DNA of 64,000 bases from Dysidea avara (taxonomy: Eukaryota > Porifera > Demospongiae > Dictyoceratida > Dysideidae). This document shows, one piece after another, positions 1 to 63,374 of the stretch (its first letter is position 1; each line of letters starts with the position of its first letter). Below the pieces are notes generated by a model. It made no database searches. It saw only the letters and a program-made list of their open reading frames with translations, and was not told where the DNA came from. The stretch is from NCBI RefSeq assembly GCF_963678975.1, contig NC_089274.1:44422075-44486074 (forward strand), in the 5' to 3' direction. The position numbers and the translations under genes were made by a program.

Positions 1-783
1 GTTAAAGGCTTCAGCTGCATTTTTAATGGCCTAAATGTTGATGATTTTACAGTAAAACATCGCTGGAGAGTCCACCATTATAAGAGTGGAACCCTCGCTT
101 TTAGAAGTCTGGATCCCAAGGTGGTTCTGCCCCTCAAAGACACAATTAGCTAGCTACCTCACAACAAAAAGCTAAACTGGTAATTAAGACTATGTAAAAC
201 GACTACCCAGCGTTAATAAATGCCAGAGACAACTCCTTGGGTACTACACCCGTTCACCCTCATCTTGTGCACATGTATTCACACTTCGTTAAAATCATGT
301 ATTTGGGTTGTGGCGTGTGCTGCAACTATTAAGTGCCGCAGCTATTAATTATCTTTCAAGAAGAACAAAGAAGAAATTGAATGATGAAAGCAAACAGCAT
401 GATGCGGTGGACAGAATGTAATCGGAACAACAGATTCGTGAATCTTCCGTCATTACCTTGGCTGTCTGAAATTTCTGGAGCCGTACACTTAGCACTACCA
501 GGTCTTACAGCTGGCAAACAGGCAGGCAGATGAAATGTAGGCGAATTTCAAAATTTTTTAGGGCTCGTTGTACATTGCAACACATTTGACTTTTTGCTTT
601 GTTTACCCAAGGTACAGCATCATTATAACAGTACTAATGCATTCCAGGTGGTTTTTTCGGCTAAAAATTATTGCAAGGCCATTTTTAAGGTGTGAAAATC
701 CACAACACCGTATGATTTCTTACCAACCCCTACTATGCGGTATTATCGTATTGTATGATATGTATAGTAGTTTCTGTGTATTT
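1..783. other. No recognisable gene; left flank of composite element
   Basis: No open frame here resembles a known protein. From about 690 to 783 the sequence, including a tagtttctgtgtatt motif, resembles the 163-bp unit found at 17 and 21-25 kb. This suggests the foldback that follows sits in or beside a diverged copy of that unit. Confidence 0.4.
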
Positions 784-1111
784 ATATCTAATCAAAAACA
801 GCCAAGCTGTAAAAAAAGGTGCGGCCCCCAAAAAGGCCATGGTGAAAAAAGATGTGAAATCCAAGGTGGCGGCCAAGAAATGGCTGTGATGGTAGGTTAA
901 TGGTTACATTTTAATAACGACAATTCAGGTGAATTTTGTGCCGCTTGGTTTTGGCACCAAATTCATCTGAATCGTTGTTATTAAAATGTAACCATTAACC
1001 TACCATCACAGCCATTTCTTGGCCGCCACCTTGGATTTCACATCTTTTTTCACCATGGCCTTTTTGGGGGCCGCACCTTTTTTTACAGCTTGGCTGTTTT
1101 TGATTAGATAT
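784..1111. repeat. Foldback with about 160-bp arms and a Lys/Ala-rich coding relic
   Basis: Left arm 784-945 and right arm about 952-1111 are near-perfect reverse complements around a very short loop. Read on the plus strand, the left arm encodes a basic Lys/Ala/Pro-rich stretch ending KVAAKKWL-stop, similar in composition to histone H1 tails. The right arm encodes the same on the minus strand. A diverged homologue lies at 19310-19650. Confidence 0.75.
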
Positions 1112-1324
1112 CACTTCTTTTTGTATTTGTATACTGCAAAGCCGGCCTATGGCTGGCTTTGGGGCTTTTTTAACCCATGTGTTTTTTTCTTTACTACAGG
1201 AAGAAGAAAAGAACTTAAAGAAGAATTTTAGTACTTCAATTATTTTTGATTTTATTAGTAATTATACAAATTATATACATATATTTATTACATGCCCATT
1301 ATTCTCCACAGGATATTTTTTTGC

Positions 1325-4300
1325 AGCTGATCTCTCTACTGGGTGATTTGAAATGTAGCTGAACTATATACAGGATGGTTTCTTTGTAGCTGAACTCTCT
1401 ACAAGGTAACCTCTTCTAGCTGGTCTCTCTACAGGGTATTTTGTTTCTAGCTGAACTCTCTACAGGTGATTTGTTTGCAGCTAAACTCTCTACATGGTGG
1501 TGTCTTTGTAGCCAAACTCTCTACATTATGGTTTCTTTGTAGCTGAACTCTCTATAAGGTGACTTCGTCTAGCTGAACTCTCTACAGGGTGATTTTTTTG
1601 TAGCTGAACTTTCTGCAGGGTGATTTGTTTGCAGCTGAACTCTCTACATGATGGTTTCTTTGTAGCTGAACTCTACAAGGTGACTTCGTCCAGCTGATCT
1701 CTCTACGGGGTGATTTGTTTCTAGCTGAACTCTCTACAGGTGATTTGTTTGCAGCTAAACTCTCTACATGGTGGTTTCTTTGTAGCTGAACTCCCTACAT
1801 GATGGTTTCTTTGTAGCTGAACTCTCTACAAGGTAACTTCTTCTCTACAGGGTGATTTGTTGTAGTTGAATTCTCTACAAGGTGGTTTGTATGAGGCTGA
1901 ACTCTCTACATGGCGGTTTCTTTGTAGCTGAACTCTCTACATAGTGATTTGTTTGCAGCTGAACTCTCTACATGATGGTTTCTTTGTAACTGAACACTCT
2001 ACAAGGTGACTTCTTCTAGCTGATCTTTCTACAGGGTGAATTGCTGTAGCTGAACTATCTACAAGGTAACTTCTTCTAGCTGATCTCTATACAGAGTGAT
2101 TTGTTTGTAGTTGAATTCTGTACAGGTGGTTTCTTTGTAGCTGAACTCTCTACAAGGTGAATTCTTCTACCTGATCTCTCTACAGGGTAATTTGTTTGTA
2201 ACTGAACTCTGTACAAGAGCGTTTTTGTGGGTGATCTCACTGCAGGTTGATTTGTTTGTAGCTGAACTCACTAAAGGGTGATTTTGCTTGTAGCTGAACT
2301 CCTTGCATTGTATCTAGTTTCTAGCTGATCTCTCTACAGGGTGATTTGTTTGTAGCTGATCTCTCTACAAGTTGATTTGTGTGTAGCTGATCTCTCTGCA
2401 GGTTGATTAATTTGCAGCCGATCTCTCTACAAGGTAATTTGTTTGTAGCTGAACTGTCTATAAAGTGATTTATTTGTAGCTGATCTCTCTGCAGGTTGAT
2501 TTGTTTTAGCTGAACTCTCTACAGGGCGATTTACTTGTAGCTGAACTCCTTACATTGTGTCTAGTTTCTAGCTGATCTCTCTATAGGGTGATTTGTTTGT
2601 AGCTGATCTCTCTACAAGTTGATTTGTGCGTAGCTGATCTTTCTACAGGTTGATTTGTTTGTAGCCGATCTCTCTACATGGTAATTTGTTTGTAGCTGAA
2701 CTCTGTACAAGGTGCTTTTTTGTAGGTGATCTCACTGCAGGTTGATTTGTTTGTAGCTGAACTCACTAAAGGGTGATTTGCATGTAGCTGAACTCCTTAC
2801 ATTGTGTCTAGTTTCTAGCTGATCTCTCTACAGGGTGATTTGTTTGTAGCTGAACTCTCTATAAGGTGATTTGTTTGCAGCTGAACTCTCTACATGGTGG
2901 TTTCTTTGTTGCTGAACTCTCTACAGGGTGTTTTGCTTGTAGCTGAACTCTCTACAGGGTGATTTGTTTCTAGCTTATCTCTCTACAGGTTGATTTGTGT
3001 GTAACTGATCTCCCTACAAGCTGATTTGTTTGTAGCTGAATTCTCTGCAAGGTGTTTTGTTTGTAGCTGACCTCTCTTCAGGGTGATTTGTTTCTAGCTG
3101 ATCTCTCTACAGGTGATTTTTTTTGTAGCTGACCTCTCTTCAGGGTGATTTGTTTCTAGCTGATCTCTCTACAGGGTGATTTTTTGTAGCTGATCTCTCT
3201 TCAGGGTGATTTGTTTCTAGCTGATTGCTCTGCAGGTTGATTTGCTTGTAGATGAACTCTCTACAGGGTAACTTGCTTGTAGCTGAACTCCTTACTTTGT
3301 GTCTAGTTTGTAGCTGATCTCTCTACAGGGTGATTTGTTTGTAGCTAAACTCCTTACATTGTGTGTAGTTTCTAGCTGATCTCTCTACAGGGTGATTTGT
3401 TTGTAGCTGATCTCTATACAAGTTGATTTGTGTGTAGCTGATCTCTCTGCAGGGTGATTTGTTTGTAGCCGATCTCTCTACAAGGTAATTTGTTTGTAGC
3501 TGAACTATCTATAAGGTGATTTGTATGTAGCTAATCTCTCTGCAGATTGATTTGTTTTAGCTGAACTCTGATTTGTTTTTAGCTTATCTCTGTACAGGTT
3601 GATTTGTGTGTAACTGATCTCTCTACAAGCTGATTTGTTTGTAGCTGAACTCTCTGCAAAGTGTTTTGTTTGTAGTTGATTTCTCTACAAAGTGATTTTT
3701 TGCAGCTGACCTCTCTTAGGGGTGATTTGTTTCTAGCTGATATCTCTACAGTGTGATTTTTTGTAGCTGACCTCTCTTCAGGGTGATTTGTTTCTAGCTG
3801 ATCGCTCTACAGGTTGGTTTGTTTGTAGCTGAACTCTCTACAGGGTGATTTGCTTGTAGCTGAACTCCTTACATTGTGTCTAGTTTCTAGCTGATCTCTC
3901 TACAGGGTGATTTGTTTGTAGCTGATCTCTCTACAAGTTGAATTGTGTGTAGCTGATCTCTCTGCAGGTTGATTTGTTTGTAGCCGATCTCTCTACAAGG
4001 TAATTTGTTTGTAGCTGAACTGTCTATAAGGTGATTTGTTTGTAGCTGATCTCTCTGCAGGTTGATTTGTTTTAGCTGAACTCTCTACAGGGTGATTTGC
4101 TTGTAGCTGAACTCCTTACATTGTGTGTAGTTTCTAGCTGATCTCTCTGCAGGTTGATTTGTTTGTAGCCGATCTCTCTACAGGGTAATTTGTTTGTAGC
4201 TGAACTCTGTACAAGGTGCTTTTTTGTAGGTGATCTCACTGCAGGTTGATTTGTTTGTAGCTGAACTCACTAAAGGGTGATTTGCTTGTAGCTGAACTCC

Positions 4301-4760
4301 TTACATTGTGTCTAGTTTCTAGCTGATCTCTCTACAGGGTGATTTGTTTGTAGCTGAACTCTCTATAAGGTGATTTGTTTCTAGCTTATCTCTCTACAGG
4401 TAGATTTGTGTTGATTTGTTGATTTGCTGATCGCTCTAAAGGTTGATTTGTCGCAGCTGAACACCCTGCAAAGTGTTTTGTTTGTAGCTGATCACTCTAA
4501 AGGGTAATTTTTTTGTAGCTGAACTCTCTCCACAGTGACTTGTGTGTAGCTGAATTCTGTGTAACTGAATTCTCTAGAGAGTGACTTAATTGTAGCTGAA
4601 TTCTCTACACAGTGCATGACTTGTTTATAGCTGAACTTTCTTCAGTGTGACTTGTAATGTTCTGAATCTCTATAGTGATATATTTGCTTAACTCTCCACA
4701 TGGTGACTGTCTTCTTGCTGAACTGTCTATAAGATTAACTGTTTGCAGCTGAACTCCCTA
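1325..4760 (+). repeat. 31-bp tandem array, roughly 110 units
   Basis: The unit reads approximately TGTTTGTAGCTGAWCTCTCT followed by ACAGGGTGATT, with variants. Most units contain TGTAG and CTACA about nine bases apart, so each can form a small stem-loop. Groups of variant units recur in the same order (for example around the gtgtctagtttctagctga variant near 2310, 2555, 2800, 3870 and 4300), which indicates higher-order amplification. Confidence 0.9.
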
Positions 4761-5654
4761 CAGAATAACTTGTGATGTAATAAAATTCTATAACGGAATA
4801 AATAAATTATCCGAATGCTCTATTAGGGTGACTGTTCTATTAGAGTATCTCGATCTCGCATTTGCTACACGGAGTTGGCTTTCGAATCATAACTCAGTGG
4901 TTTGTAATTCGATTCTTCTGTACTACTGCAAGGACTTTCTATGAAGATTATTCCAGCTATACACCGATTTTCAGCTCATTGCTCTAAGCGGTTTGCCTAG
5001 TAGGCGTGAAAACTAATACTTTTTTATTCATAAAAATCGATCGCGTGATTGTGACACAGGTTGGGTTTTGTGTCATATCTCCGTGGTCTTTATCTCGATT
5101 CCTTTCAAACCACCAAAAGGCACTCCTACGATGGTTACTCCATCTACATAGCAATTTTCAACTCATTCCATGAAGCGGTTTACCCTGTAGGCGTGACAAC
5201 AAATCGATCTTGTTTTACGCGAATAATCGGTCATAACTCCTGAACCTTTCATAGGATTTGTACCAAATTTGATGCTAGGATTCGCCTTTGGACTCCCTTT
5301 CTGTGTGCCAAATTTCAAGGCGATCGGAGTACGCGTTTGCTTGTTATAGCAATTTTTGCAAGTGTGCGAAAAGACGAAGAAGAAAAAAAACGAAACTTTG
5401 GCAGCTCGTATCTCGGAAATGGCTTGAGCGATTTCCTTCAAATTTGGAATGTAGACTCCCCTAGCTGGCGGGCAACTGTGTAGCAAATTTGGTTTCAATC
5501 AGATAAGTGATCACCGAGATACAAAGGTGTGAAAATGACGTTTTCGTTCTTCCTGTCAATATACTCACGGGTGTGGCGCGCCGGCTTCTTGGGCCGCACG
5601 ATACACTACCGTGTGTCTTGATGTTTGTTTGTGTACCTGTTGTGGTGAAAATGA

Positions 5655-5953
5655 CAAGTACACAGAAAAATTTGGAAATTTCAACTAGAGTAGGGACCGT
5701 AACACATCAATAAAAAGTACTGAAACAAGCTGGAGTAGTGCACGATATTAATTCACAGTAAAACTATAAGAAGTGTTATATCCCTACTGTGCATTTCCAT
5801 TATGGTATCTTGAGCACAGTAAGGATATAACACTTCTTATAGTTTTACTGTGAATCAATATCGTGCACTACTCCAGCTTGTTTCAGTACTTTTTTATCGA
5901 TGTGTTATGGTCCCTATTCTAGTTGAAATTTCCAAATTTTTCTGCGTACTTGT
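5655..5953. mobile_element. MITE-like foldback (family Y), intact copy
   Basis: Arms of about 135 bp are inverted around a loop near 5800-5815. The ends are ACAAGTACACAG and its complement CTGCGTACTTGT. It interrupts the tail of composite copy A. The right arm and part of the loop recur at 53330-54293, where this copy serves as the uninterrupted reference for another insertion. No coding capacity and no clear target duplication. Confidence 0.7.
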
Positions 5954-6366: not shown

Positions 6367-6750
6367 GTCTGTCATTGTCAATGTCATGGAGGAAATTAAT
6401 GTTGTAGATTACTGGACTTCCTTATTTGTACTTGTCATCGTCAATGCCACGGGCAAATTAACGGCGTAGATTACTGGACTTCCTTATTTGTACTTGTCAT
6501 CGTCAATGCCACAGGCAAATTAACGGCATAGATTACTGGACTTCCTTATTTGTACTTGTCATCGTCAATGCCACGGGCAAATTAACGGCGTAGATTACTG
6601 GACTTCCTTATTTGTAATTGTCATCATCAATGCCACGGTCAAGTTGAACGGCGTAGATTACTGGACTTCCTTATTTGTATGTGTCCTTGTCATTGTCAAT
6701 GTCACAATAAATTAACAGCGTAGATTACTGGAATTTCTTATTTGTACAAT
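6367..6750. repeat. 62-bp tandem repeat, about 6 units
   Basis: The segment tagattactggacttcctt recurs at 6405, 6467, 6529, 6591 and about 6654, with a diverged copy near 6719. The spacing is 62-63 bp for the first units. Inner units are nearly identical and the outer ones diverge, as in a minisatellite. Confidence 0.9.
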
Positions 6751-6838: not shown

Positions 6839-7006
6839 ATGGCTGACAACGATGTAAGACAGTGTAGGAATGCTAGGAGAAGAGAATTGTACAGAATGCA
6901 GAGAGCTGCAGAAACACCTACGGAGACTGAAGAAAGGAGACGTAGACACCGTGAATACATGCGAAGAAGACAAGCAAACATTAGTTCTGATGAACAAAAT
7001 GAATAA
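6839..7006 (+). CDS. Small Arg-rich STPR-like ORF (55 aa)
   Basis: The ORF starts at ATG 6839 and stops at TAA 7004-7006. The product is extremely basic and contains RRRELYRMQRAAETPTETEE followed by RRRRHREYMRRRQ. This resembles the 23-residue STPR repeats of FMBP-1-type DNA-binding proteins, which share an RAAETPE...RRRRREY pattern. Only about two repeats are present, so it may be a fragment. A related string (RQERLRRKRNND) is encoded around 27085-27150. A 48-bp minisatellite follows directly. Function as a DNA-binding peptide is inference; it may be a relic carried by a repeat element. Confidence 0.4.
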   Translation: MADNDVRQCRNARRRELYRMQRAAETPTETEERRRRHREYMRRRQANISSDEQNE

Positions 7007-7184
7007 ACCAAGGGTACACACAAAGGAGAACACCAGCATCAACGTATGATCAAGGGCTAACACACAATCAAACCTCATCATCACTGTTAGCATATGATGA
7101 AGACATGACACATAATCACGTGTCATTCTTATCATTAGCGTTTCATCAATATATGAGATATGATCAAACCCCATCAGGTTATGA

Positions 7185-7850
7185 TCAACATATGACACAT
7201 GATAACACCCCATCACTACTGTCAATGTATGATCAAGATGTGCCACATGATAACACCTCATCACCAGTGTCAGAGTATGATCAAGACGTGCCACATGATA
7301 ACACCTCATCACCAGTATCAGAGTATGATCAAAACATGGTAACACTCCATCACCACTGTCAGAGTATCATCAAAACATCGCACATCATAACACCCCATCA
7401 CCACTGTCAGAGTATGATCAAAACATCGAACATGATAACACTCCATCACCACTGTCAGGGTATGATCAAAGCACAACACATGATCACACCCCATTACCAC
7501 TATCAGAGTATGATCAAAACATTGAATGTGATAACACTCCATCACCACTGTCAGGGTATGATCAAGACATGTCACATGATGACACCCCATCACCACTGTC
7601 AATATATGACCTAGATATGCCACATGATCACACTCCATCACAACTGTCAGAATATAATCGAGACATTGCACATGATAACATCCCATCATCACTTTCAGGG
7701 TATGATCAACATGTCACACACAATTGCACTTCATCACAGTTCAATATGATTACACACCATCATCAGTGTATAATGAAAATACAAGACATGATCAAACCCC
7801 ATCACCACCATCATAATATTATAGTGAAGGCATCAAACTAGATCAAATCA
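7185..7850 (+). repeat. 48-bp minisatellite, partly open on the plus strand
   Basis: The 48-bp unit (catcaccactgtcagagtat as core) encodes a 16-residue repeat of the form YDQDMPHDNTPSPLSE on the plus strand. One frame is open from 7105, but a frame change near 7330 turns it into HHHCQSMIKT-type repeats. The original frame reappears from about 7569 to 7740. It could be a decayed repeat-rich exon following the 6839 ORF, or simply a minisatellite whose period is a multiple of three. Confidence 0.7.
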
Positions 7851-16062: not shown

Positions 16063-17040
16063 ATTAGATATCGCATGTTCAGTAACACATCACATGCATG
16101 TTGAAACAGCTGACACAATATCTCTTTTGGTGATAGTAAACTGTAGTTCAGGTCCCGACAATAACTGTTCATATATACTGCAATCCTATTGTAGTAGCTA
16201 AATCATTCCCTACATTAATAAATGAATTAAACACAATTACTAGGTAAATACGTACACTTGCAAATTATATCACACAATACTTTTCAGAAGCTCTTCTTAG
16301 TTGTAAATCCAAGCTGCTATCATACTGCAACGTCCTTAATCATGATATATTGTACCCTGCACACACAAAACGCTCGCCCCTTGATGCTGATAGCATCTGT
16401 CTAGTATCAGTTATCGTCTGAAAAGTGAAGTATCCATTACGCTTCGTTGTCGGCTATGTTCAACCCGTTACACAGCAGTATGAATCAAGAACTGTTTGAA
16501 AAGCACCTCTGATATCAAAATAGCCACTATGACAAATACGGACGATTTCTGAGAAGCCATCACATGCTATCGCCAAATCAACACTTTTCGCTGTTAGCAA
16601 AGATGAATGGGACACAAAGGAGGACACTGGTAAGTCCATGAAGAAAGCATTGTACGTACTGCGGTGTGCCAAAAGGCAACTGTCGGGCTGAAACTATGTC
16701 GAACAATGAAACAATCAAGCCCATAGCCTTAGCTGTTATTGAGCTACACTTGTCTGAAGACATCAGTCAGTTACTTACTTACTTACATACTCAGTCAGTA
16801 GAAAATTCCGTTAAATAAATTATTTTTAAATTCCACAGCAACTTGTTGAAAGCATTTTAGGTCGATCTGAAAGCTTGTTTGGGCTTAGTTTCACCAACTA
16901 ATACTGCCTCATTGTCGTTAGGGGAAATTGAGGCTGATTTTGGGTGATATTATTTCATGGGCCACGCCTACCCCTTTGTGGTCCCTACTATGCACTACTA
17001 TCATAGTGTATGATACATATTGTAATTTGTAACTATTTTG
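16063..17040. other. Repeat-derived, no gene
   Basis: The stretch 16418-16515 matches 6033-6145. A short hairpin at 16384-16400 (gatgctgatagcatc) is followed by tgtctagta. Nothing convincingly coding. Confidence 0.4.
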
Positions 17041-17280
17041 CATTTGTTTTACTTTTCATGAACTTCTTTGTACAACTGTTTGATGCTAATATTGGTGGAT
17101 AATCAGCTCGTAAGTGATATTTTATCTCTGTAGTTTCCGTGTATTCATATTGTGTGTTTGCATAGGTGTTGTGGTGAAAATGATGCATATTGTAATTTTT
17201 GCATTTGTTTTACATTTCATGAACTTCCTTGCACAACTGTTTGATGATGCTAATATTGGTGTATAATCAGATCATAAGTT
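17041..17280 (+). repeat. Two units of the 163-bp intron-like repeat, outside the main array
   Basis: Unit ends occur at 17101-17115 (aatcag, then ctc at 17107-17109, then gtaagtgat) and at 17265-17280 (aatcag, atc at 17271-17273, then ataagtt, donor lost). They match the array at 20.8-25.7 kb in all landmarks: ttcatgaacttc, gctaatattggtg and gtggtgaaaatg. Confidence 0.8.
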
Positions 17281-17286
17281 ATAGTT

Positions 17287-17397
17287 GTAACACACCTATG
17301 AGGTTTGTATCTGATTTGTAAACACAACACCCAAGGGTTGCAGACCCAAGGGTGGAGCTGTTTACAAATCAGACAGAAACCAAATGGGTGTGTTATA
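17287..17397. repeat. Short foldback, about 45-bp arms
   Basis: The sequence taacacacc...ctgatttgtaaacac is inverted as gtttacaaatcag...ggtgtgtta around a loop at about 17330-17350. It resembles a minimal MITE directly after the second 163-bp unit. Confidence 0.6.
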
Positions 17398-18196
17398 AAG
17401 CTGATTTGTGGTATGGGGCGTGCGAAGATCAACTGTACCCACTTGCAACACTGAAAGAACAAGAAGGCAAGTCTAATACTGGCTATCACTGAGCGCTATG
17501 TACAAGGAATAGTTTTACTGTCTTCATGTTTAGTTATAGTTCCTTGTTAGCTAGTTTGTTCATTGGTAGTACGTTTCCTATGCACAAGCACAAGGTACCA
17601 TATCAATGCCAATTACTCCAGCTATTGTACTGCTTTCACATCATTTAGACAGGTGTAGATGAAGTGTCTGATATTCATTCTTCAGTGGTCCAGCACTACA
17701 GTAGTCTTGGTTAGCTTAATTTATTGGCAAATGAGCGTGTAGTACATATGTACCGACTCAGCCCAGCAATTGTACTGCTTCCCATTCATTCAGAAGAATG
17801 CAGTGCTGTGCAGTGGTAGATACAGGTGGGGGAGGGGGGGTGGGGCAAGGGGGCTCTTGACCACTCCTCCAAGAATTTTCAGTATACCAAGATCAAGATA
17901 CTCTAATAGAGCAGTCACTCTAATAAAGCAGTCACAGTATTTAGAGTAGCATGTAGAAAGCTATGTAAGGATTTTTATGTAGTCTATCAGTGATAAATGC
18001 ATAATTGGTGGGGTGGGCAGCTATTTTCAGCATGCAGGCCATGCTGTGACCTTTGTATTTTTTTGTTTTTTGGTCTCACATTACCAAACCAGACAATGTG
18101 GTGCCATTTCATTTTGATCCCACCTTTCCAAAAGTGTGGATCCACCCCTGGTGCTGTGTGTTTATTTGTTTCAGAGTGATTCATCTCCTTGATGTA
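17398..18196. other. No gene seen
   Basis: A G-rich run lies at 17824-17850. The dispersed motif actctaatagagcagtcac is at 17901-17920, followed by a variant. No supportable ORF. Confidence 0.4.
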
Positions 18197-18200
18197 TTAA

Positions 18201-18873
18201 CCCTTAAACGCGCATGAAACTTTTAAGGAATTAGTCCTGAATGCGCACAGACCATTTATGGAATGCGTGTTTACGCAAAACAAACTTATATGGTGAGGTA
18301 AGACAGCCTTTCCTACATCTATTAGCCTAAAACCATATATCAATAGAAAGCTTATTCATTGGTCTACTTGGGGAAGGCTAAATAACCACTGTAACAACAA
18401 TGGCTTACTTGTTATAAAGCGAAGAAGATCTATGTCTCGCTTTATCGCAACGCCACATTCTTCGCTTCAATCGTAGTTTCGATTGTGGGTTTAGTCACGT
18501 GAGCTATATATGGCCTGATTCGCCATTGAATGGCCATTCGAATAGTACTTGTTTGAAGCAAATCAGACGAACTGTCAAGGAGTTATGGATCATTTTCTAA
18601 AGGTATGTAATATATTTTTTGTGGTTAGTTGTTGAAAATTATTTTCATGGCGATTTTTGGTCTTATGCTTTGGTCGTAGGGTAAACCCCTAGGTATCATT
18701 TTAATGCTTATTACATCACGAGTAGAATGGCACAAGTTACAAAGCCATATGGTAAACGCTTCAAAAGTTACAGCGCTTTGTTTACAACCATGCGTAAAAG
18801 CCTATATATAGGCTTATGCGTTTTCAAGGCCATGCGTAATCTGCCTATATATAGGCTTACGTGCGTTTAAGGG
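18201..18873. mobile_element. piggyBac-like MITE (673 bp)
   Basis: TTAA at 18197-18200 and 18874-18877 flanks inverted ends CCCTTAAACGCGCATG and CGTGCGTTTAAGGG. A TTAA duplication with CCC/GGG ends is characteristic of piggyBac elements. The right subterminal region holds a tandem motif with cctatatataggctta. No transposase frame, so mobility would depend on another element. Confidence 0.85.
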
Positions 18874-18877
18874 TTAA

Positions 18878-19309
18878 CCAAATTCATTGCCTTGTATTTG
18901 TATTGTGACTTCCTTTATTGATCTTGTGTATGGTTTCGTTTGATGTCTTTGAACTACTGTACCGTAATTTGTTTTTTTCGTTGTAAATAATTTTCTTATG
19001 CAAAACTTGCACAAAAATTTCTTACACAAAAATTTTTGCACAAAATCGAACTACTCTATAGAGCAGTCATTCACGTAAATCATACGAAAATATTTTTACA
19101 CTAAAATTTTTATTACTAAAAATGTTTGCACAAAAATAAAGCGAATTACGGTAATTAGTGGCCAGACTGTGTGGCCAATTGGAGGTACTTGGCCATGTTA
19201 CAATTATTTCTAAACCGGTTTGCAACTGATTTGTAACACTGGCGGCAGCCTTTGATCTGCCCACGCACCATACTACAAATGATATATTTCCCCTGTAGTT
19301 TCTGTGTAT
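18878..19309. other. Non-coding, low complexity
   Basis: Several cttrcacaaaaatttt-type repeats lie at 19000-19140. The end (about 19285-19309) carries the tagtttctgtgtatt motif of the 163-bp unit, as at the left border of composite copy A. Confidence 0.4.
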
Positions 19310-19650
19310 TATTATCTAATGAAAAACAGCCAAGCTGTAAAAAAAGAGTAAGGCCCCCAAAAAGGCTGTGGTGAAAAAAGATGTGAACACTAAAGTGGCA
19401 GCCAGGAAAAGGCTGTGATGGTAGATTAATGGCAAAAATTTTAATAACAACCATTCAGGTGAATTTGTGTTGCCACCTCCAAGATTCGGCACCAAATTCA
19501 CCTGAATTGTCGTTATTAAAATTTTTGCCATTAACCTACCATCACAGCCATTTCTTGGCCACCACTTTGGATTTCTCATCTTTTTTTTCACCATAGCCTT
19601 TTTTGGGGGTCACACTCTTTTTTACAGCTTGGCTGTTTTTGAGTAGATAT
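19310..19650. repeat. Foldback of composite copy B
   Basis: Arms of about 160 bp are inverted around 19480. The right arm read on the minus strand retains a basic frame ending KSKVVAKKWL-stop, parallel to copy A. The left arm has an in-frame TAA. Confidence 0.75.
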
Positions 19651-19787
19651 CACTTCTTTATGTATTTGTATACCCCAAATTTTTTAACGTATCTTTTTTT
19701 CTTTACCACAAGAAGAAGAAAAAGTTTTAAAGCAGATTTTTAATACTTTAACTATTTTTGATTTATCAGTAAATATATATACAAATG

Positions 19788-19819
<32 letters not shown>

Positions 19820-19861
19820 TACATGCAAATTATTCCGTACAGAATAAATTGTTTGCAGCTG

Positions 19862-20225
19862 ATCTCTCTACTGCGTAGGTGACTTGAAATGTCTCTACAG
19901 GATTCTCTCTACAGGATAGCTTGTTTCTAGCTGAACTCTCTACAGGGATATCTGTTTGTATAGTTGAACTTTTACAGGGTGGTTTGTTTGTAACTGAACT
20001 CTCTACAGGGTGATTTTGTTTGTAGTTGATCTCTCCACAGGGTGACCTGTTTCTAGCTAATCTCTCTACAAGATGACTTGTTTCTAGCTGATCTATCTAC
20101 AGGGTGATTTGTTTGCAACTGAATTTTCTACAGGGTGACTTGTTTTTATCTGATATCACTAGAGTGATTTGTTTGTAGCTGAACTCTTTACAGGGTGACT
20201 TGTTTGTAGCTGATCTCTCTACAGT
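19862..20225 (+). repeat. 31-bp tandem array, short version
   Basis: About 12 diverged units of the same tgtttgtagctgaactctct unit as at 1325-4760. Confidence 0.85.
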
Positions 20226-21316
20226 GTGGTACAGGTTGGGTTTTGTGTCGTATCTTCATAGTCTTTATCTTGATTCTTTTCAAACCACAAAAAGGCACTC
20301 CTATGAAGGTTACTCCATCTACATAGCAATTCTCAGCTCATTCCTTCTAGGGGTTTACCCTGTAGACGTGACAGACCTTCAACCTTATTATACGCCAACA
20401 ATCTGTCATAACTCCATGAATAATCATTGGATTCCTACCAAACTTGGTACTGCGAACAGCTGTAATACGCTCTTTGAGTGTGCCAAATTTCAGCTCAACT
20501 GGAGCACGCATTTGTATTTTATGGTGGATTTTGCAAAGTGTGCAAAACGAAGAAGAATAATAAGAAAAAATGAAGAAATTAGAACAAAATTTTGGTCACT
20601 CGTATCTTGAAAATGTCTGGAACAATTCTCGTAGAATTTGGTATGTAGACTCCCCTAACTGGCCAGCACTTCTGAAGCAAATTTGGTTTCAATCGGATAA
20701 GGGATCGCAGAGCTACATAGGTGTGAAAATAGTGTTTTCTTTCTTCCTGTCAATATACTCACAGTGTGGAGTGCTGGCTTCTTGGGCTGCACTACACACT
20801 ACTGTATGTCTTGATGTGTGTGTTGCATACCTGTTATGGTAAAAATGATGCATATTGTAATTTGCAATTATTTTGCATTGGTTTTTATTTTTCATGAACT
20901 TCTTTGTACAACTGTTTGATAATGCTAACATTGGTGGATAATCAGGTCGTAAGTTTTGTTTTACCACTGTAGTTTCTGTGTATTTGTATGTGTGTTTGCA
21001 TACCTGTTGTGGTGAAAATGTGATGCTTATTGTAATTTTTGCATTCATTTTACTTTTCATGAACTTCTTTGTACAACTGTTTGATGATGCTAATATTGGT
21101 GGATAATCAGGTCGTAAGTTTTATTTTACCCCTGTAGTTTCTGTGTATTTGTATGTGTGTTTGTGTACCTGGTGTGTTGAAAATGATGAATATTGTAATT
21201 TGTAACTATTTTGCATTTGTTTTTACTTTTCATGAACTTCCTTGTACAACTGCTCATGATGCTAATATTGGTGGATAATCAGCTGGTAAGTGATATTTTA
21301 CCTCTATAGTTTCTGT

Positions 21317-22105
21317 GCACACCTGTTGGATTTTGCAACTATTTAGCATTTATTGTACAACTGTTTATGATACTAATATTGGTGAATAATCAGTGTATAA
21401 TTAATAGTTATGGCTGCAAGGGATTTTGCTGATATATGCACCCAAAGCCGGAGAGCCGCACAAGCAGCTGTGGCATAAGTGATATTTATTATATTACTCA
21501 GTGCACAGGTGAAAGAACTACAGAGCACTCACCCCATTTGTTTTATACACTAGCATCTATTGATCAATTGTGGTTTCAATTGCGCAGGCAAATAGCTCTA
21601 AGAACGTTATTCCTATGTCAGTATGTTTCAAGACACACCAGGAATTTTCGGTTGTCGGATTGCTTTTTGGGGTGTTAAGGAGGACTATAAGCTACTTACC
21701 TAGTTGTCATATTCTTCTTGCTTTGTCGTCTGCTCAATGGCTGACATGCCCCCCTGTGCAGTAGGTAGAAATACTCATCCACGCATCGTCCAATTTCTCA
21801 TTACTGTTTACAGATCATTTGTCTTAGAATATACGTAGTTTAGTTTACTGTAAAATAATCTAAACTTAGCAAGTACACTGAGCCGAGCCTAACTTGTAAA
21901 CTCAAACCCATAATGAAATGCTCTGTGTCGCTCAATATAACGAATCAAAGACTAAACATATCTCGTATCTTTGAACTGGTTGGGCATCAAAGCCATGAAT
22001 AACCGCGTTCCTATTTTATTGCGCAGGTAATATCTAGATATTGTCTGGAAAATACACCAGTTAAACCCTGAAAGTCGCCACACTAAAGTGGTATACGTGA
22101 TATTT
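21317..22105 (+). repeat. Left copy of an about 0.8-kb duplicated segment
   Basis: Closely matches 24715-25555. It starts within a unit variant with caacta/tatttagcattt and includes gttatggctgcaagggattt, a stretch with gtgcacaggtgaaagaacta, and ttgcgcaggtaatatctag near the end. No convincing protein. The two copies flank the uniform core of the 163-bp array as direct repeats. Confidence 0.8.
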
Positions 22106-24714
22106 TACCCCTGTAGTTTGTTTTGTGTGTTTGTGTACCTGTTGTGTTGAAAATGATGCATATTGTAATTTGTTACTATTTTGCAATTTTTTTTACTTTT
22201 CATGAACTTCTGTTTATGATACTAATATTGGTGGATTATCAGAACGTAAGTGATATTTTACCCCTGTAGTTTCTGTGTATTTGTATGTGTGTTTGTATAC
22301 CTGTTGTGGTGAAAATGATGCATATTGTAATTTTTGCATTTGTTTTACTTTTCATGAACTTCTTTGTACAACTGTTCGATGATGCTAATATTGGTGGATA
22401 ATCAGCAAGTAAGTGATATTTTACCCCTGTAGTTTCTGTGTATTTGTATGTGTGTTTGCATACCTGTTGTGGTGAAAATGATACATATTGTAATTTTTGC
22501 ATTTGTTTTACTTTTCATGAACTTCTTTGTACAACTGTTCGATGATGCTAATGTTGGTGGATAATCAGTTGGTAAGTGATATTTTACCCCTGTAGTTTCT
22601 GTGTATTTGTATGTGTGTTTGTATACATGTTGTGGTGAAAATGATGCATATTGTAATTTTTTCATCTGTTTTACTTTTCATGAACTTCTTTGTACAACTG
22701 TTCGATGATGCTAATATTGGTGGATAATCAGATGGTAAGTGATATTTTACCCCTGTAGTTTCTGTGTATTTGTATGTGTGTTTGTATACATGTTGTGGTG
22801 AAAATGATGCATATTGTAATTTTTGCATTTGTTTTACTTTTCATGAACTTCTTTGTACAACTGTTCGATGATGCTAATCAGGAAGTAAGTGATATTTTAC
22901 CCCTGTAATTTCTGTGTATTTGTATGTGTGTTTACATACATGTTGTGGTGAAAATGATGCGTATTGTAATTTTTGCATTTGTTTTACTTTTCATGAACTT
23001 CTTTGTACAACTGTTCGATGATGCTAATATTGGTGGATAATTAGCTCGTAAGTGATATTTTACCCCTGTAGTTTCTGTGTATTTGTATGTGTGTTTACAT
23101 ACATGTTGTGGTGAAAATGATGCATATTGTAATTTTTGCATTTGTTTTACTTTTCATGAACTTCTTTGTACAACTGTTCGATGATGCTAATGTTGGTGGA
23201 TAATCAGAATGTAAGTGATATTTTACCCCTGTAGTTTCTGTGTATTTGTATGTGTGTTTGCATACATGTTGTGGTGAAAATGATGCATATTGTAATTTTT
23301 GCATTTGTTTTACTTTTCATGAACTACTTTGTACAACTGTTTGATAATGCTAATATTGGTGGATAATCAGTTGGTAAGTGATATTTTACCCCTGTAGTTT
23401 CTGTGTATTTGTATGTGTGTCTGCATACATGTTGTGGTGAAAATGATGCATATTGTAATTTTTGCATTTGTTTTACTTTTCATGAACTTCTTTGTACAAC
23501 TGTTTGATAATGCTAATATTGGTGGATAATCAGGAAGTAAGTGATATTTTACCCCTGTAGTTTCTGTGTATTTGTATGTGTTTGCATACATGTTGTGGTG
23601 AAAATGATGCATATTGTAATTTTTGCATTTGTTTTACTTTTCATGAACTTCTTTGTACAACTGTTTGATAATGCTAATATTGGTGGATAATCAGGAAGTA
23701 AGTGATATTTTATCCCTGTAGTTTCTGTGTATTTGTATGTGTTTGCATACATGTTGTGGTGAAAATGATGCATATTGTAATTTTTGCATTTGTTTTACTT
23801 TTCATGAACTTCTTTGTACAACTGTTTGATAATGCTAATATTGGTGGATGATCAGTTGGTAAGTGATATTTTACCCCTGTAGTTTCTGTGTATTTGTATG
23901 TGTGTTTGCATACATGTTGTGGTGAAAATGATGCATATTGTAATTTTTTCATTTGTTTTACTTTTCATAAACTTCTTTGTACAACTGTTCGATGATGCTA
24001 ATATTGGTGGATAATCAGGAAGTAAGTGATATTTTACCCCTGTAGTTTCTGTGTATTTGTATGTGTGTTTGCATACCTGTTGTGGTGAAAATGATGCATA
24101 TTGTAATTTTTGCATTTGTTTTACTTTTCATGAACTTCTTTGTACAACTGTTCGATGATGCTAATATTGGTGGATAATCAGATGGTAAGTGATATTTTAC
24201 CCCTGTAGTTTCTGTGTATTTGTATGTGTGTTTGTATACATGTTGTGGTGAAAATGATGCATATTGTAATTTTTGCATTTGTTTTACTTTTCATGAACTT
24301 CTTTGTACAACTGTTCGATGATGCTAATGTTGGTGGATAATCAGCAAGTAAGTGATATTTTACCCCTGTAGTTTCTGTGTATTTGTATGTGTGTTTGCAT
24401 ACATGTTGTGGTGAAAATGATGCATATTGTAATTTTGCATTTGTTTTACTTTTCATGAACTTCTTTGTACAACTGTTCGATGATGCTAATGTTGGTGGAT
24501 AATCAGGAAGTAAGTGATATTTTACCCCTGTAGTTTCTGTGTATTTGTATGTGTGTTTACATATATGTTGTGGTGAAAATGATGCGTATTGTAATTTTTG
24601 CATTTTTTTTACTTTTCATGAACTTCTGTTTATGGTACCAATATTGGTGGATAATCAGAAAGTAAGTGATATTTTACCCCTGTAGTTTCTGTGTATTTGT
24701 ATGTGTGTTTGCAC

Positions 24715-25555
24715 ACGTGTGGATTTTGTAACTATCTAGCATTTGTTATACAACTGTGTATGATACTAATATTGGTGAATAATCAGTGCGTAATTAATAG
24801 TTATGACTGCAAGGGATTTTGCTGATATTTATACCCAAAGCTGGAGGGCCGCACAAGCAGCTGTGGTATAAGTGATATTTCTTATATTGCTCATTGCACA
24901 GGTGAAAGAACTACAGCGCACTCATCCCATTTGTTTTATACACTAGCATCTAATGATCAATTGTGGTCTCAATTGTGCAGGCAAACATCTCTCAGAACGT
25001 TATTCCTATATCGGTATGTTTCAAGACACACCAGATGTTTTCAATTATGAGATTGCTTTTTGGGGTGTTAAGTTTTAATACTACATCAAACCTTTGCTAT
25101 TGTGGCAGTAAGTTAATACATTAAGTTAAGTGCTTAGGACTATAAGCTACTCACCTAGTTGTCATATTCTTCTTGTTTTGTTGTCTACTCAATGGCTGAC
25201 TTGCCCCCCCCGCTGTGCAGTGGGTAGAAATACTCTTCCACACATTGTCCAATTGCTCAATATAGTTTAGTTTACTGTCAAATAATCTAAACCTAGCAAG
25301 TACACTGAGCCGAGCCTAACTTGTAAACCCAAACCCAAAATTAAATGCTCTGTGTCGCTGAGTATAATGAATCAAAGACTAAATGTATCACATATCTTTT
25401 AACTGGTTGGGCATCAAAGCCATGAGTAACCGCGTTCCCATTTTATTGCCCAGGTAATATCTAGATATTGCCTGAGAAAGATGCCAGTTATACTCTAAAA
25501 GGCACCTTTGATTGGCCACAATAAAGTGGTATACGTGATATTTTACCCCTATAGT
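24715..25555 (+). repeat. Right copy of the about 0.8-kb duplicated segment
   Basis: Homologous to 21317-22105. It contains about 70 extra bases near 25070-25135 and lacks about 45 bases near the left copy's 21800-21835. Divergence is greater than between array units, so the core has been homogenised more recently. Confidence 0.8.
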
Positions 25556-25715
25556 TTCCTGTTGTGTTGAAAATGATACCTATTGTAATTTGTACCTGTT
25601 TTGCATTTGTTTTACTTTTCATAAACGTCTTTGTAGAACTGTTTGCTGATGCTAATATTGGTGGATAATCAGCTCTTTAGTTATATTTTACCCCTGTAGT
25701 TTCTATGTATTAGAG

Positions 25716-25976
25716 TATTTTGAAAAATTGTTAATTTAAAAATGAAGTAGGGATCTATGCAATATAAAGTAATGAAACAAGAGATGAATGATGGTATTAC
25801 AGCATAGCTCAATTGGAAGTCCCTACTTTGGCATTGAACAAAATTATAATAACTAGTGTGCGAAAGTAGGGACTTTCTCACTGAGCTATGCTGTAATACC
25901 ATCATTCATCTCTTGTTTCATTACTTTATATTGCATAGATTCCTGCTTCGTTTTTAATTAAGTATTTTTTTAAATA
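25716..25976. mobile_element. MITE-like foldback (family Z), copy 1
   Basis: Arms with aaaatgaagtagggatc and gattcctgcttcgttttt ends are inverted around about 25850. The inner part includes gtattacagcatagctca. It interrupts a 163-bp unit. A second copy lies at 63151-63374. Confidence 0.75.
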
Positions 25977-26023
25977 CTAGTTTGTTTAGTTTTTTGTTGT
26001 GATACAGCTAGCTACAATGTATC

Positions 26024-26284: not shown

Positions 26285-26635
26285 AACAATAATGTTTTTA
26301 TATTGTGTTTGGTTCTTTTTCTTATAAAAGTATGTCTACCAGAACAATGTAATTTGTAACTGTTCTATCATACATAACTATATGGACTAGTAATATTCCG
26401 TAAAGGTGAATTTCATCGCAAAAAAAAATGTCTTTAGGATGATTTTTAAAGGTGGAATTTTTGATGGCGCACAAAATTTTCACAACGATCCCTACTTAAA
26501 CGGTACTACTGTACCATTTGATTTTGTATGTTTGCGTACCTGTTGTGGCGAAGATGATGCATATTGTAATCATATGTTTTACTTTTCATGAACTTCTTTG
26601 AACTATTTGATCATTTTAGGACATATGGCCCAGCT

Positions 26636-27258
26636 TGTTGGGGTGAGCCTGAGTGAGCCCCACATTGGCAGTAGTCACTTCGTATAACTGATTGTACATC
26701 CGACCATTCCAAAGAGTTTACATAATGAACACGGACAGCCCACACTAGTTGTACTCGCTCACATACGTACGACCATTCCTGAGAGTTTATGTAATGAACA
26801 CAGAAAGCCCCACACTGGTAGTGCTGAACCATACATACGACCATTCCTGAGAGTTTACGTAATGAACATAGAAAGCCTCACACTGACTTGGCCCATTCCA
26901 ACAGTATGGAACTTCAATAATCTATTCTGTATGTATTTTCAAAGTGTGTATTAATTTATGGTGCCTAAAAACACTGGTAGTGCTCAACCGTACGTACGAC
27001 CATTTCCGAGAGTTTACATAATGAGACGTGGAAGCGATACTTACCATCAACCTCTCCTTTGCATGGCAAGCAATGTGCAGACTGATGAAGCTAGACAAGA
27101 AAGGCTTAGAAGAAAGAGAAACAACGATAGAGCAAAGAGAAACTTCTGAAGAAAGGGATGCAAGGTTTATTTTTGACACGCAAAACAATCGTGTCACTTC
27201 ACGACTACAGATTAACTAACTAATATTATAAAAACTCAGGCTCACCCCAACATGCTTT
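26636..27258. repeat. Inverted-ended repeat with internal 70-80-bp tandem units and an STPR-like fragment
   Basis: The ends carry tgttggggtgagcctgag (26636) and ctcaggctcaccccaaca (about 27258), an inverted pair. Inside, three to four units with cgaccattcctgagagttta recur between 26700 and 27020. A plus-strand stretch around 27070-27150 encodes RQERLRRKRNND and, in another frame, TSEERDAR, as in STPR-type repeats. This is related to the region around 6186-7006. Confidence 0.5.
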
Positions 27259-41391: not shown

Positions 41392-43687
41392 ATGGCCCAG
41401 CTAACTGCTCCGTGTTTGGCTAAGAGTTCAGAGTATGTAACGAAGCTATCGTTAGAAGCTAGAGAGAGATACGAGAGAAAAGTTTTAAAGTCCGGGTTGA
41501 CTGTAGACCCGTACGTTATTGCACCAGGAGGGTGGACTCGGGAGCCAAGCAACTTACCACATGTACAATGGACTGATTTAGTATTGTATATGGTCACTAC
41601 TCCGAGTCCTTACACAGCAGAAACTGTAAAAGTAAGCAGTGTTTGAGCTATTGTGTACAGTTATGCATTAGCTATTGGCCGGGCGCCGCTTTCTCCATAA
41701 ACTTAATATAGGCTTGGAAAGGAATGCAAGATTCTGCCGGATTCGTAAAAGCTGGCTGGGTCCATGATATGTTGTTACATCATATTTCAATACCAGATGA
41801 GAGGTTCATCATCAAAGGAAAGGTATAACTTTATATGCAGTGCACAAAGCTATACATGCTTATTTTTTTGGTATAGTTAGCTAAGTAGCTATAAAGTCAG
41901 TAAAAAAATCACTGAACGGATTTTTCCCCATGTAGATTAAGCATTCACAGAAGATGGCAGCCACACCATTATTACCTTGGGCAGTGATAGAGAAGGAAGA
42001 GAAAATATTGGCTTGCCACTGTACATGCATGGCTGGGTAAGATGCAGTTTGCTATATTTATATATAATGCAGCCATATTGCACACCTTATATTGTAGGCT
42101 TGGTGAGGCATGTAGTCACATTGCAGCATTGATATCTTGTGTGATTGCTGCTGTAGAGAGTAGGGAGAAAGCTGGTATTGACTCAGTTACATCACAGAAC
42201 TGCAAGTGGCTACCACCAGCTAGAAATGTATGGTGCCAGAATATCTTGGTATATGCTGGTCATAACATTTTAAAATTGTTTAGGTTACCCCAGCTAAAAT
42301 TTGTGAGATCAAATTTAGTAATCCAATTAGTAACACAGATGCTCATGGAAAGTCATTATTGCCTGTCAAGCCAAGAAAGTCCCTTCCTGAAGATGAATTC
42401 AAATCATTCTTAGACTACATCAGTGGTTCTGTCCATAAACCTGGACTCTTCAAGATAACTATGCCATTTGCTAATAAATTTGTTCCGAAGGCATATAATT
42501 CCAAGCTGCCTCAACCCCTATCCATTTTATACTCACCAGAAGCTTTACATTTGAACTACCTCTCTCTACTGCATGAATGTGAGGCAGTGTTTCAAACTAT
42601 CAAGGTACATACATACTTACAATAATGCAGTTATATTTGTCATGAGAAGTTTTTACTGTGTTTTATATAGGCCACAAAAGATGAAATTGATGAACTAGAG
42701 CGTAGTTCCAGAGGACAGTCTTTGAATAAAGTATGGTATACCTTTAAAGCTGGTAGAATCACTGCTTCTCTGATGAAGTCTGTTGTTCAAACAAACCATG
42801 CTATGCCGTCTCAGAGCCTAATTTGTAGAATATGCTACCCAGAAGCATTTAAGTTTTCCACTGAAGCTACAAGGTGATTATTTCATATTCTATATACCGT
42901 GCATGCATAGCTAATGCTGCATCTGTTGCACAGATGGGGTTGCGTATATGAGCAAGGTGCAGTAAAGGCTTATAAACATCATGCTGAATTACATCATCAA
43001 GGATTCAGAATTGAATATGCTGGCCTTTTCTTGCATTTGGATGATCCATACATAGGAGCATCGCCAGACAGAATTGTCTGCTGTGACTGTCATGGAAAAG
43101 GTGTGCTAGAGGTCAAGTGTCCATTTTGTATGAAAGATGGACTGCCAGACAACGACAAAGAGAATATCTTCATGGTGTTGAAGGATGGTAAATGGACATT
43201 GAAACATGATCATGCATACTTCTATCAAGTGCAGACTCAGCTTAATGTTTGTCAAATGCCCTATGCTGACTTTGTTGTATGGACAAAGAATGGAATGACC
43301 TTTGAACGGATCCCCAGAGAAACCCAGTTTTTGGAAATATACTCCGAAACCATTAAACATTTTTTCACATACGGTATTTTGCCTGAGATTGTAGGAAAGT
43401 GGTACACCAGACAACCAATTGCTGGTGATGATGGCATCGTTGATTGTGTAACAAATACAAAGCCTGTTGGTAGCAGTGGAGGTGATGATGATGAGGAGGA
43501 TTATGAAAAAGATTGGTGTTATTGTGTCCAACCAAGTTTTGGACGGATGATTCTGTGTGATAATGTAGCTTGTCCAATTCAATGGTTTCACTGTGAATGT
43601 CTCAGAATTCGAGGAAAACCGAAAGGAAAATGGTACTGTCCAGGGTGTGCAAAGATGAAAACCAGAAAGAAAAGTAAAGAAGAATAA
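41392..43687 (+). CDS. SWIM-YqaJ-PHD accessory protein of transposon B, seven exons, 619 aa
   Basis: Predicted exons: 41392-41631, 41712-41822, 41936-42036, 42098-42227, 42284-42604, 42671-42873 and 42934-43687. All junctions are GT...AG, and phases join without a stop (1860 nt). A SWIM zinc finger is split between exons 3 and 4: C146, C148, C156, H158 (CTCMAGLGEACSH). The YqaJ nuclease core has AGRITASLM in exon 6, ASPDRIV with Asp 414, LEVKCP with Glu 428 and Lys 430, and YQVQTQ near 466-471. The C-terminus is an ING-like PHD finger with C564, C566, C577, C582, H588, C591, C604, C607, a fold that often reads methylated histone H3. A nuclease assisting transposition and chromatin targeting by PHD are inferences. 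The start is the first ATG after the TIR that opens the joined frame. No lesion seen. Confidence 0.8.
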
Positions 43688-44697
43688 CTATAGTATACTT
43701 GTACTTATTGCTTTATATATATATATATATCATAGTACCAAGAGTACATAATAAAGTACACACAACAATAATAATATTCATTAAACATGTCAGTCTTGTG
43801 GCACAACAGAAGGACACAAGTTTACCAGAGCACAGCTCACTTGTACAATCTTGTCTAAAGTTTACAGATTTCCATCACCTCCTGATATGAGGCTGATGGG
43901 TAATACACCTTGTAGAATGGTATATTTCTGTTTCAACACCCCGATAACCCTTTCAACATGAATTCTTACTAAAGACAGCTCTCTACTCCAGTCAACTTCA
44001 AGCTTTTCAAGCTGGCTTTTACCCTTTGTGAAAGGTGGAGTCTTTACTTCTGCCATCACCATTCTAGCATAATCATCACAGGTAAAACCTCGATCGGCCA
44101 ATATTACATCACCTATGTGAACATACATAAATACTTTAAAACTAAATAGAGGCCAACCTGGAAGAAGAAAACTAATAAGGTTTGATTGCTCAACAATTTC
44201 TTTGTCAGATATTCTTCCACCATAACAATTTGACACATATGAAATAGTGCCTTGGGGAGTTATGCCAATAAGAAATTTTGCAGTTGAATGGTGTTTATAG
44301 TTGCTCCAAACCTGAGCCCTGGCCAACAAATCAGATGGTCGCTCAATGAAAACCTCATTATTACAGCACACTTTTTGAAAAACTTTCTGAAGGAAGCAGG
44401 CATTGTCAACCTCAATACATCTCTGTCGGGCCACTTTATGCAGTTTGCTGTACACATTACCAGCACATCCAGGACTTTGTGAAAGTATCTAGACACTGTT
44501 GAAGCATGGCATCCAAATCTAAACCCTATATCTTCATCAAATAAATTCTCATGAAAAACATCACAAAAGCTGAGAATTTAGAGATTTTTGTTCCACTATT
44601 CATGTACCTGGAAGCAAGCTAGCTTGAACAGGCCTTCAAAAACACACCATTCATGTATTCCTATGAATATAGCAAACAGCTGTAATCACACAATAAC

Positions 44698-62682: not shown

Positions 62683-63150
62683 GCAGGCATAAAATTATTG
62701 ATTGTATTCATAAACTTGAGCTTTTGACATGTACAAAAAGTGATGGTAGCAACATGCAGCAGTATACAACATAAACAGCAGCAGCAATATCAAGTGGTAT
62801 ACAAAGCAAACAATGGCAGTGACATACGTACAAAAATAAGCAAAGATGGCAACATAATTGTATTTATTCCAGAAATTGTAACATACAGGGCAAACCACTG
62901 CACAGCACATAAGCAATCAGCAACACTGTGACATGGCTTGCAACACTAATGCGACGAAATTATTTAAAGCACTTACACTACTGTCAGATACCTGTAACTT
63001 TCGAAACCATGATCTAGGTTACTAATAATGATCAAGAATAGTGACCATGCCCCTTGGTAGGTGGGACACTGGGTTAAAATACTCTAATGCAGCAGTCACC
63101 CTAATAGAACAGTCACACATGTAAAGCTGTATGCAAAACTAAATAAACTA
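62683..63150. other. No gene seen; dispersed motif at 63078-63115
   Basis: Contains variants of the tactctaatagagcagtcac motif. No gene. Confidence 0.4.
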
Positions 63151-63374
63151 GTATATTTTATAAAATGAAGTAGGATTCCAAGCAATAAAAAGTTTTGAAA
63201 CAGATGGCATTACAGCACAGCTCAGTGGAAAAATTCCTACTTTGGCATTGAACAAAATAATTGTTATACCATGCCAATGTATGGGAACTGTGCTGTAATA
63301 TCATCATTCATCTCTTGTTTCACTAATTTTTATCATTTGGATCCCTACTTAATTTTTATATTTTTAAATATAGT
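63151..63374. mobile_element. MITE-like foldback (family Z), copy 2
   Basis: Same plan as 25716-25976: aaaatgaagtaggatt at left, tggatccctacttaattttt at right, and acagcacagctcagtgg inside. Arms are more diverged. Confidence 0.7.

Follow-up and report, generated by a model that had tools for sequence, protein, structure and literature searches.

Tandem intron-like units separated by hypervariable triplets in the sponge Dysidea avara: a putative array of one-codon exons

Introduction

Can a tandem repeat whose units begin and end like spliceosomal introns, with only three bases left between neighbours, be a row of one-codon exons, or is it a satellite in which three adjacent positions change quickly? 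This question is raised by a locus of the demosponge Dysidea avara, where the window analysed here, that is, the whole stretch of 64,000 nucleotides at positions 44422075-44486074 of one contig (NC_089274.1; hereafter designated C3), holds an array of a 163-nt unit at about 17.0-26.6 kb, broken up by other repeats. In full, the unit runs GTAAGT...TGCTAAT...ATAATCAG, with three bases after it; TGCTAAT is branch-site-like, and the presumed branch A lies 17 nt before the intron end (by eye). A first-pass annotation had raised the possibility that the units are near-identical introns separated by 3-nt exons. We describe here the composition of the array, the hypervariability of the triplets, and the coincidence of their borders with a splice-site pair, and weigh the putative intron/exon structure against rival explanations.

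Results

Three bases between intron-like units

Scanning of both strands of the window for CAG-NNN-GTAAGT gave 19 exact sites, every one within the array family, and TAG-NNN-GTAAGT gave one further junction with its triplet at 23045, so that 20 intact junctions are present in total, 19 within 20839-25680 and one at 17107 (Table 1). The AG-NNN-GT layout that the first-pass annotation had described for 20 units (19 with CAG and one with TAG) was thereby confirmed, together with its ten triplet values, whereas its count proved incomplete: a profile search of the window detected 24 unit 3' ends, adding ATC at 17271, CTC at 25673, TGT at 21394, and TGC at 24787. Because a fixed 3-nt gap had been used in the exact-site scan, the spacing was checked separately on the profile hits. 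The distance from the unit end to the next unit start is 3 nt at 21 of the 24; at 17271, 21394, and 24787, where it was judged by eye from donor remnants, it is compatible with 3 nt. A further detail of the same annotation had to be corrected, namely, a deletion of 11 bp before 22882, which measures 13 bp and lies between two TAAT copies. At all 20 intact junctions, 3 nt separate AG and GT, whereas the two would be adjacent at a zero-nucleotide recursive splice site.

Hypervariability of the triplets

The core triplets run in the order AAC CAA TTG ATG GAA CTC AAT TTG GAA GAA TTG GAA ATG CAA GAA AAA. The 15 introns between these 16 core junctions show a mean pairwise divergence of 3.1%, with 112 of 160 columns invariant, whereas that of the triplets is 65% (75% being expected for three free bases), which bears out, within the array, the early impression that the triplets vary and their surroundings hardly do. 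Indeed, the three most variable columns of the alignment are, in order of rank, triplet positions 0, 2, and 1, and the 15 nt downstream of the triplet contain no variable column. Introns differing at 0 or 1 sites may carry wholly different triplets, and the intron difference is unrelated to the triplet difference (Spearman ~0, 105 pairs). With the triplet taken as a separate partition under proportional branch lengths, and with the equal-rate fit choosing its own tree, the triplet rate was 29 times that of the flanks for the 16 core units (twice the log-likelihood difference, 40; equal-rate model worse by 20.1 log units) and 13 times for 20 units (36; worse by 18.1 log units), both ratios being approximate in that the core tree assumes no recombination, though the units recombine.

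As a control, the three-column excess of variability was scored for seven arrays with a period of at least 25 and at least five copies in the window and its 100 kb flank. The excess is 18.0-fold in this array and 10.3-, 7.6-, 5.1-, 4.0-, 2.7-, and 2.7-fold in the six others, the 10.3-fold value belonging to an array of five poorly aligned copies, of which one is very divergent and one has a deletion. A clean variable block was seen in none of the four control arrays inspected by eye. Variability in the present array is therefore not spread across the unit as it is in an ordinary satellite.

The first base of the triplet is near uniform (entropy, 1.95 of 2 bits), and bases 2-3 are mostly AA, TG, or TC. 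At 22 of the 24 unit ends, A or T occupies the middle position; the exceptions are TGT and TGC, at which a strict rule of A or T in the middle fails (2 of 24), and this rule was discarded. The two exceptions probably go back to a single event that was copied along with its block, because each adjoins a copy of the same dispersed element (copies A and B in Table 1). This element interrupts one unit only a few bases into its donor, and the block was apparently duplicated later.

In the older units (CTC, ATC, GTC, GTC, CTG, and CTC), the triplets diverge by 36% at a flank divergence of 15.5%, as compared with 65% at 4.4% in the core. It is thus in the young core that diversity is highest, a distribution that favours active diversification over a simple survival of ancient codons.

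Splice-site pair at the borders of the variable block

In the circular 163-nt consensus, the sole AG-NNN-GT and the sole GTRAGT are both located at the hypervariable block. This exact bounding of the block by the unique splice-site pair of the unit is our main argument, and it favours, as read from the sequence, intron plus 3-nt-exon units over a random satellite hotspot. By hand arithmetic with the base composition of the unit, CAG and GTAAGT would flank a random triplet with a probability of ~2e-6, a value that overstates the case because the coincidence was seen first and tested afterwards; the corresponding chance for AG and GT flanks alone is ~0.4%. The two GTC units additionally hold an AG directly followed by GT.

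Genome distribution and a second array

A search of the 550.8-Mb genome (108 contigs) with the unit DNA gave at least 25 matches, all listed ones inside the window; the number is a lower bound because the search skips very common words and scores the best candidates only. Unit copies were not found in the 100 kb flank of the window either. Since the listed matches are confined to the window and the flank has none, the unit behaves like a feature of this locus.

A similar array was seen on a second contig of 988,140 bp (ENA) as the minus-strand open reading frame (ORF) translations P0001 and P0002. Seven junctions occur in these translations, five of which decode as 3-nt spacers (G?A, TT?, T?G, A?A, and A?G), each compatible with a window triplet, one base being unknown in each. 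The order TT?, A?, G?A in P0001 fits TTG-ATG-GAA at 22569-22884, and the order in P0002 is absent from the window. The remaining two spacers are of 2 nt (A?) and 4 nt (RTG?). The assertion that the spacer never shifts the frame thus does not extend to every known copy, unless these two spacers are sequence errors; they could be G-run errors beside ATG followed by GTAAGT, or true length changes.

In viral contigs, the junction pattern and two more patterns gave 0 hits. Bacterial and archaeal contigs gave 14 loci by pattern match alone, against ~7.5 expected by a hand estimate that takes the pattern as 18 bases long and the base composition as uniform. A structured or spliced-leader RNA repeat was rejected, as the window has no Rfam match at the gathering score and no tRNA; likewise rejected were a stable RNA fold (z of -0.19 and 0.45 for two frames of one unit) and a DNA hairpin at the junction, the stability of which is not unusual (z, -0.25).

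Coding potential and points against splicing

The ten triplet values encode L, V, M, N, Q, E, and K. The caution with which the lack of stop codons had been presented was justified, as ten different random triplets are free of stops with a probability of 0.51. The middle base is A or T in all ten values, for which the probability is 0.004 with genomic and 0.003 with coding composition; this calculation, which preceded the inclusion of TGT and TGC among the junctions, does not discriminate between the two compositions. Neither a search of the 20-residue concatenation of the triplet products in PDB sequences nor a further protein search gave a match.

Several observations weigh against one-codon exons. 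The codon-usage log-odds of the ten values, based on six training ORFs, is -1.8 bits, and that of their reverse complements is +2.4. The core residue order has no significant helical amphipathicity relative to shuffled orders (100 degrees, P=0.41). A codon scan trained on nine ORFs, from which short exons would escape, shows no coding segment next to the array that stands out from background; plus-strand segments of 7-11 bits near the array (e.g., 16539-16682, 17331-17474, and 27082-27177) are of a strength also typical of both strands elsewhere, as judged w/o a computed null. Silent-looking differences among the triplets (three Leu codons and two Asn codons) would not arise from amino-acid selection alone. 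The spacers of 2 and 4 nt on the other contig would shift the frame. At the splice signals themselves, the 13-bp deletion leaves the branch-like A within 5 nt of AG, and a usable donor is absent at four of the 24 unit ends, two at the edges of surviving blocks and two interrupted by the dispersed element.

Neighbouring repeats and other features

Table 1 Features of the array and of the repeats interrupting it (window coordinates)
Feature	Position	Strand	Remarks
Outlying array units	17010..17285	+	CTC before GTAAGT, 17107-17109; ATC before ATAAGT, 17271-17273 (latter spacing by eye)
Unit 5' fragment	19278..19313	+	Profile positions 4-39
Dispersed repeat, seemingly inside a unit	19314..20803	+	Probable insertion; resembles stretches of 767-5654
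Older, more divergent units	20804..21393	+	GTC 20946, GTC 21111, CTG 21283; donors GTAAGT
Candidate junction TGT with donor remnant	21394..21400	+	Remnant up to ATAA; interrupted by dispersed element
Dispersed element, copy A	21398..22095	+	Outside array proper; left border not fixed to the base
Core array, 16 junctions	22243..24661	+	Junctions separated by intron-like units of 147-160 nt
Unit with 13-bp deletion	22735..22881	+	Deletion between TAAT repeats
TAG-CTC-GTA junction	23042..23050	+	TAG replacing CAG
Candidate junction TGC with donor remnant	24787..24793	+	Remnant up to GTAA; interrupted by dispersed element
Dispersed element, copy B	24791..25531	+	Left border not fixed to the base
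Final well-preserved unit and start of next	25532..25713	+	CTC at 25673; donor TTTAGT
Decayed unit fragment	26524..26614	+	Profile positions 36-138

The 'long units', with ~700 bp extra, were at first considered as pieces of a multi-exon gene with short open stretches, an idea that was dropped when a genome search identified the extra DNA as the dispersed element of copies A and B. This element has 1,296 first-look candidates in the genome, 40 of which were scored. Among 11 copies read, 5 have precisely AAGTGGTATA as their right end and 6 have a variant of it. AG-NNN-GT occurs also inside this element, as cagTAGgt at 21759-21766 in copy A and cagTGGgt at 25218-25225 in copy B.

The end of the dispersed repeat that precedes the older units resembles P0003-P0008 from other contigs. 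The repeat contains a 31-bp minisatellite (consensus ctctctacagggtgacttgtttgtagctgaa), found at 19905-20228 and, greatly expanded, at 1303-4558. Fold-back elements with AGTAGGGA ends lie near array fragments at 25733-25993, 63135-63362, and 5689-5890. Another element, at 18196-18878, has inverted ends TTAACCCTTAAACGC...GCGTTTAAGGGTTAA (by eye) and an internal ATG followed by a donor-like GTATGT; an exon-like ATG at ~18588 was rejected because it is located inside an inverted-repeat element with TTAA/CCCTTAAACGC ends (by eye).

Elsewhere in the window, a 48-bp repeat array at 7003-7841 is open through the repeats on the plus strand, with ORFs of 203 and 170 aa. Within 164 kb, a related 62-bp repeat with GTAGATTAC in common forms three separate arrays, at 6370-6747 of the window, 9113-9419 of L024, and 8346-8750 of L032. 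The window is animal-like in having ORFs with THAP, DDE_Tnp_4, OTU, and COR-A matches. A plus-strand ORF at 42911-44488, which matches YqaJ and, below threshold, PHD, adjoins a minus-strand DDE_Tnp_4 ORF; presumably, the two may form one transposon.

Discussion

Taken together, the results partly support the reading of the units as introns with 3-nt exons. The account that we tentatively place first, giving it somewhat less than an even chance, is that an intron and a 3-nt exon were amplified in tandem, after which the putative exons diversified and the introns stayed alike. At this one locus, a single spliceosomal intron (~160 nt, GTAAGT...TGCTAAT...CAG) would have been amplified in tandem along with a single 3-nt exon. 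Each triplet could then be read by the spliceosome as a symmetric micro-exon, and any subset of units could be included in frame, adding 0-20 or so residues, mostly L, E, Q, N, K, M, and V. The introns may have been kept alike through unequal exchange and conversion, and the triplets may owe their diversity either to selection or to a mutational process specific to the site. A further-reaching proposal is that the locus is a cassette array of at least 20 one-codon exons, each behind a near-same intron, with codons diversified and introns kept alike, so that the choice made in splicing would write short variable peptides codon by codon in frame; this we regard as unlikely.

The leading rival, itself doubtful, is a non-coding satellite with a three-base hotspot of mutation or repair, the splice-like borders being due to chance or a relic. 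Such a hotspot agrees with the neutral codon usage and the failure to find clear host exons beside the array, with the near-random first base of the triplet (1.95 of 2 bits), with the variable spacer length on the other contig, and with triplet differences unrelated to intron differences. It leaves unaccounted for the match between the block borders and the unique splice-site pair of the unit, as well as the smaller excess (10.3- to 2.7-fold) in the six other scored arrays; moreover, we know of no process that replaces a three-base block at constant length, which we also count against it. If, instead, the triplets were retained old exons, either of a coding stretch split by a proliferating intron or with codons under purifying selection between conversion-homogenised introns, near-saturated triplets, silent differences included, would be expected beside introns ~97% alike, as is observed. 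Yet, the triplets are more diverse in the young core (65% at a flank divergence of 4.4%) than in the older units (36% at 15.5%), and we consider this explanation improbable.

We assign an equally small probability to introner- or transposon-like units, in which the triplet would be a 3-nt target duplication or a circle-junction spacer. Introner families with target duplications of 3-9 bp exist, according to the part of the literature consulted (PMC9860276), and the constant 3-nt length and the A or T in the middle at 22 of 24 unit ends would suit them. Neighbouring triplets should then be equal, whereas adjacent core pairs are equal in only 1 of 15 cases (shuffles average 1.9), so that the core triplets do not look like the equal flanking duplications of an introner or DNA transposon; an equal adjacent pair outside the core is GTC-GTC at 20946/21111. 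Introners are also recognised by many dispersed copies in different genes, whereas the unit search listed matches in the window only and the 100 kb flank has none, for which reason a transposon-derived unit was rejected as the main account. Finally, the array might be a concatemer made by a reverse transcriptase that jumped between intron RNAs and added untemplated bases at each jump. Template jumping with untemplated additions is a behaviour of non-LTR (long terminal repeat) enzymes, and short variable spacers do abut intron-like ends here. Additions at such jumps vary in length, however, and 21 of the 24 window spacers are of 3 nt, with the other three compatible; this origin therefore seems highly improbable.

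Should the tandem intron/3-nt-exon units be spliced, they would provide a test case for how the spliceosome deals with adjacent 3-nt exons and for the generation of peptide diversity. If they are not spliced, a three-base block of near-constant length, with a turnover an order of magnitude faster than that of its flanks, would itself call for an explanation and would point to an unknown local process of mutation or repair.

Comparison with known systems

No paper on tandem single-codon exons appeared among those listed by searches of an open-access library, absence from which proves nothing. The micro-exon genes (MEGs) of Schistosoma have symmetric exons, and their products are varied by splicing. 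Their exons of 3-81 bp alternate regularly with introns, and the products are secreted, as stated in the portion of the source used here (PMC10526429). In the present array, the spacing that would correspond to such exons in tandem is 3 nt at 21 of the 24 window unit ends by profile, at three more by eye, and at five of the seven junctions of the other contig; unlike the schistosome exons, its candidate exons are all single triplets, its core introns are ~97% alike, and it is confined to one locus and known from DNA alone. In Drosophila homothorax, a 3-bp micro-exon is spliced and alternative (PMC7392893); as far as the excerpt describes it, that exon is single, corresponds to the initial 3 bp of an alternative exon of 48 bp, and is conserved, in contrast to the many hypervariable triplets of the array. 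At zero-nucleotide recursive splice sites, AG abuts GU within long intronic sequence (in the passages cited from PMC13149111), whereas three nucleotides lie between acceptor and donor here. Introners, in the same partial account as above (PMC9860276), are near-identical intron-like units with 3-9 bp duplications in some families, and the array differs from them in being tandem at one locus with mostly unequal neighbouring triplets. As described in these excerpts, none of the MEGs, the homothorax exon, the recursive sites, and the introners consists of one-codon units that are hypervariable and arrayed in tandem. Collectively, if splicing does occur, the array would represent an extreme variant of both micro-exon genes and exon duplication, in which the smallest in-frame exon has been amplified and diversified.

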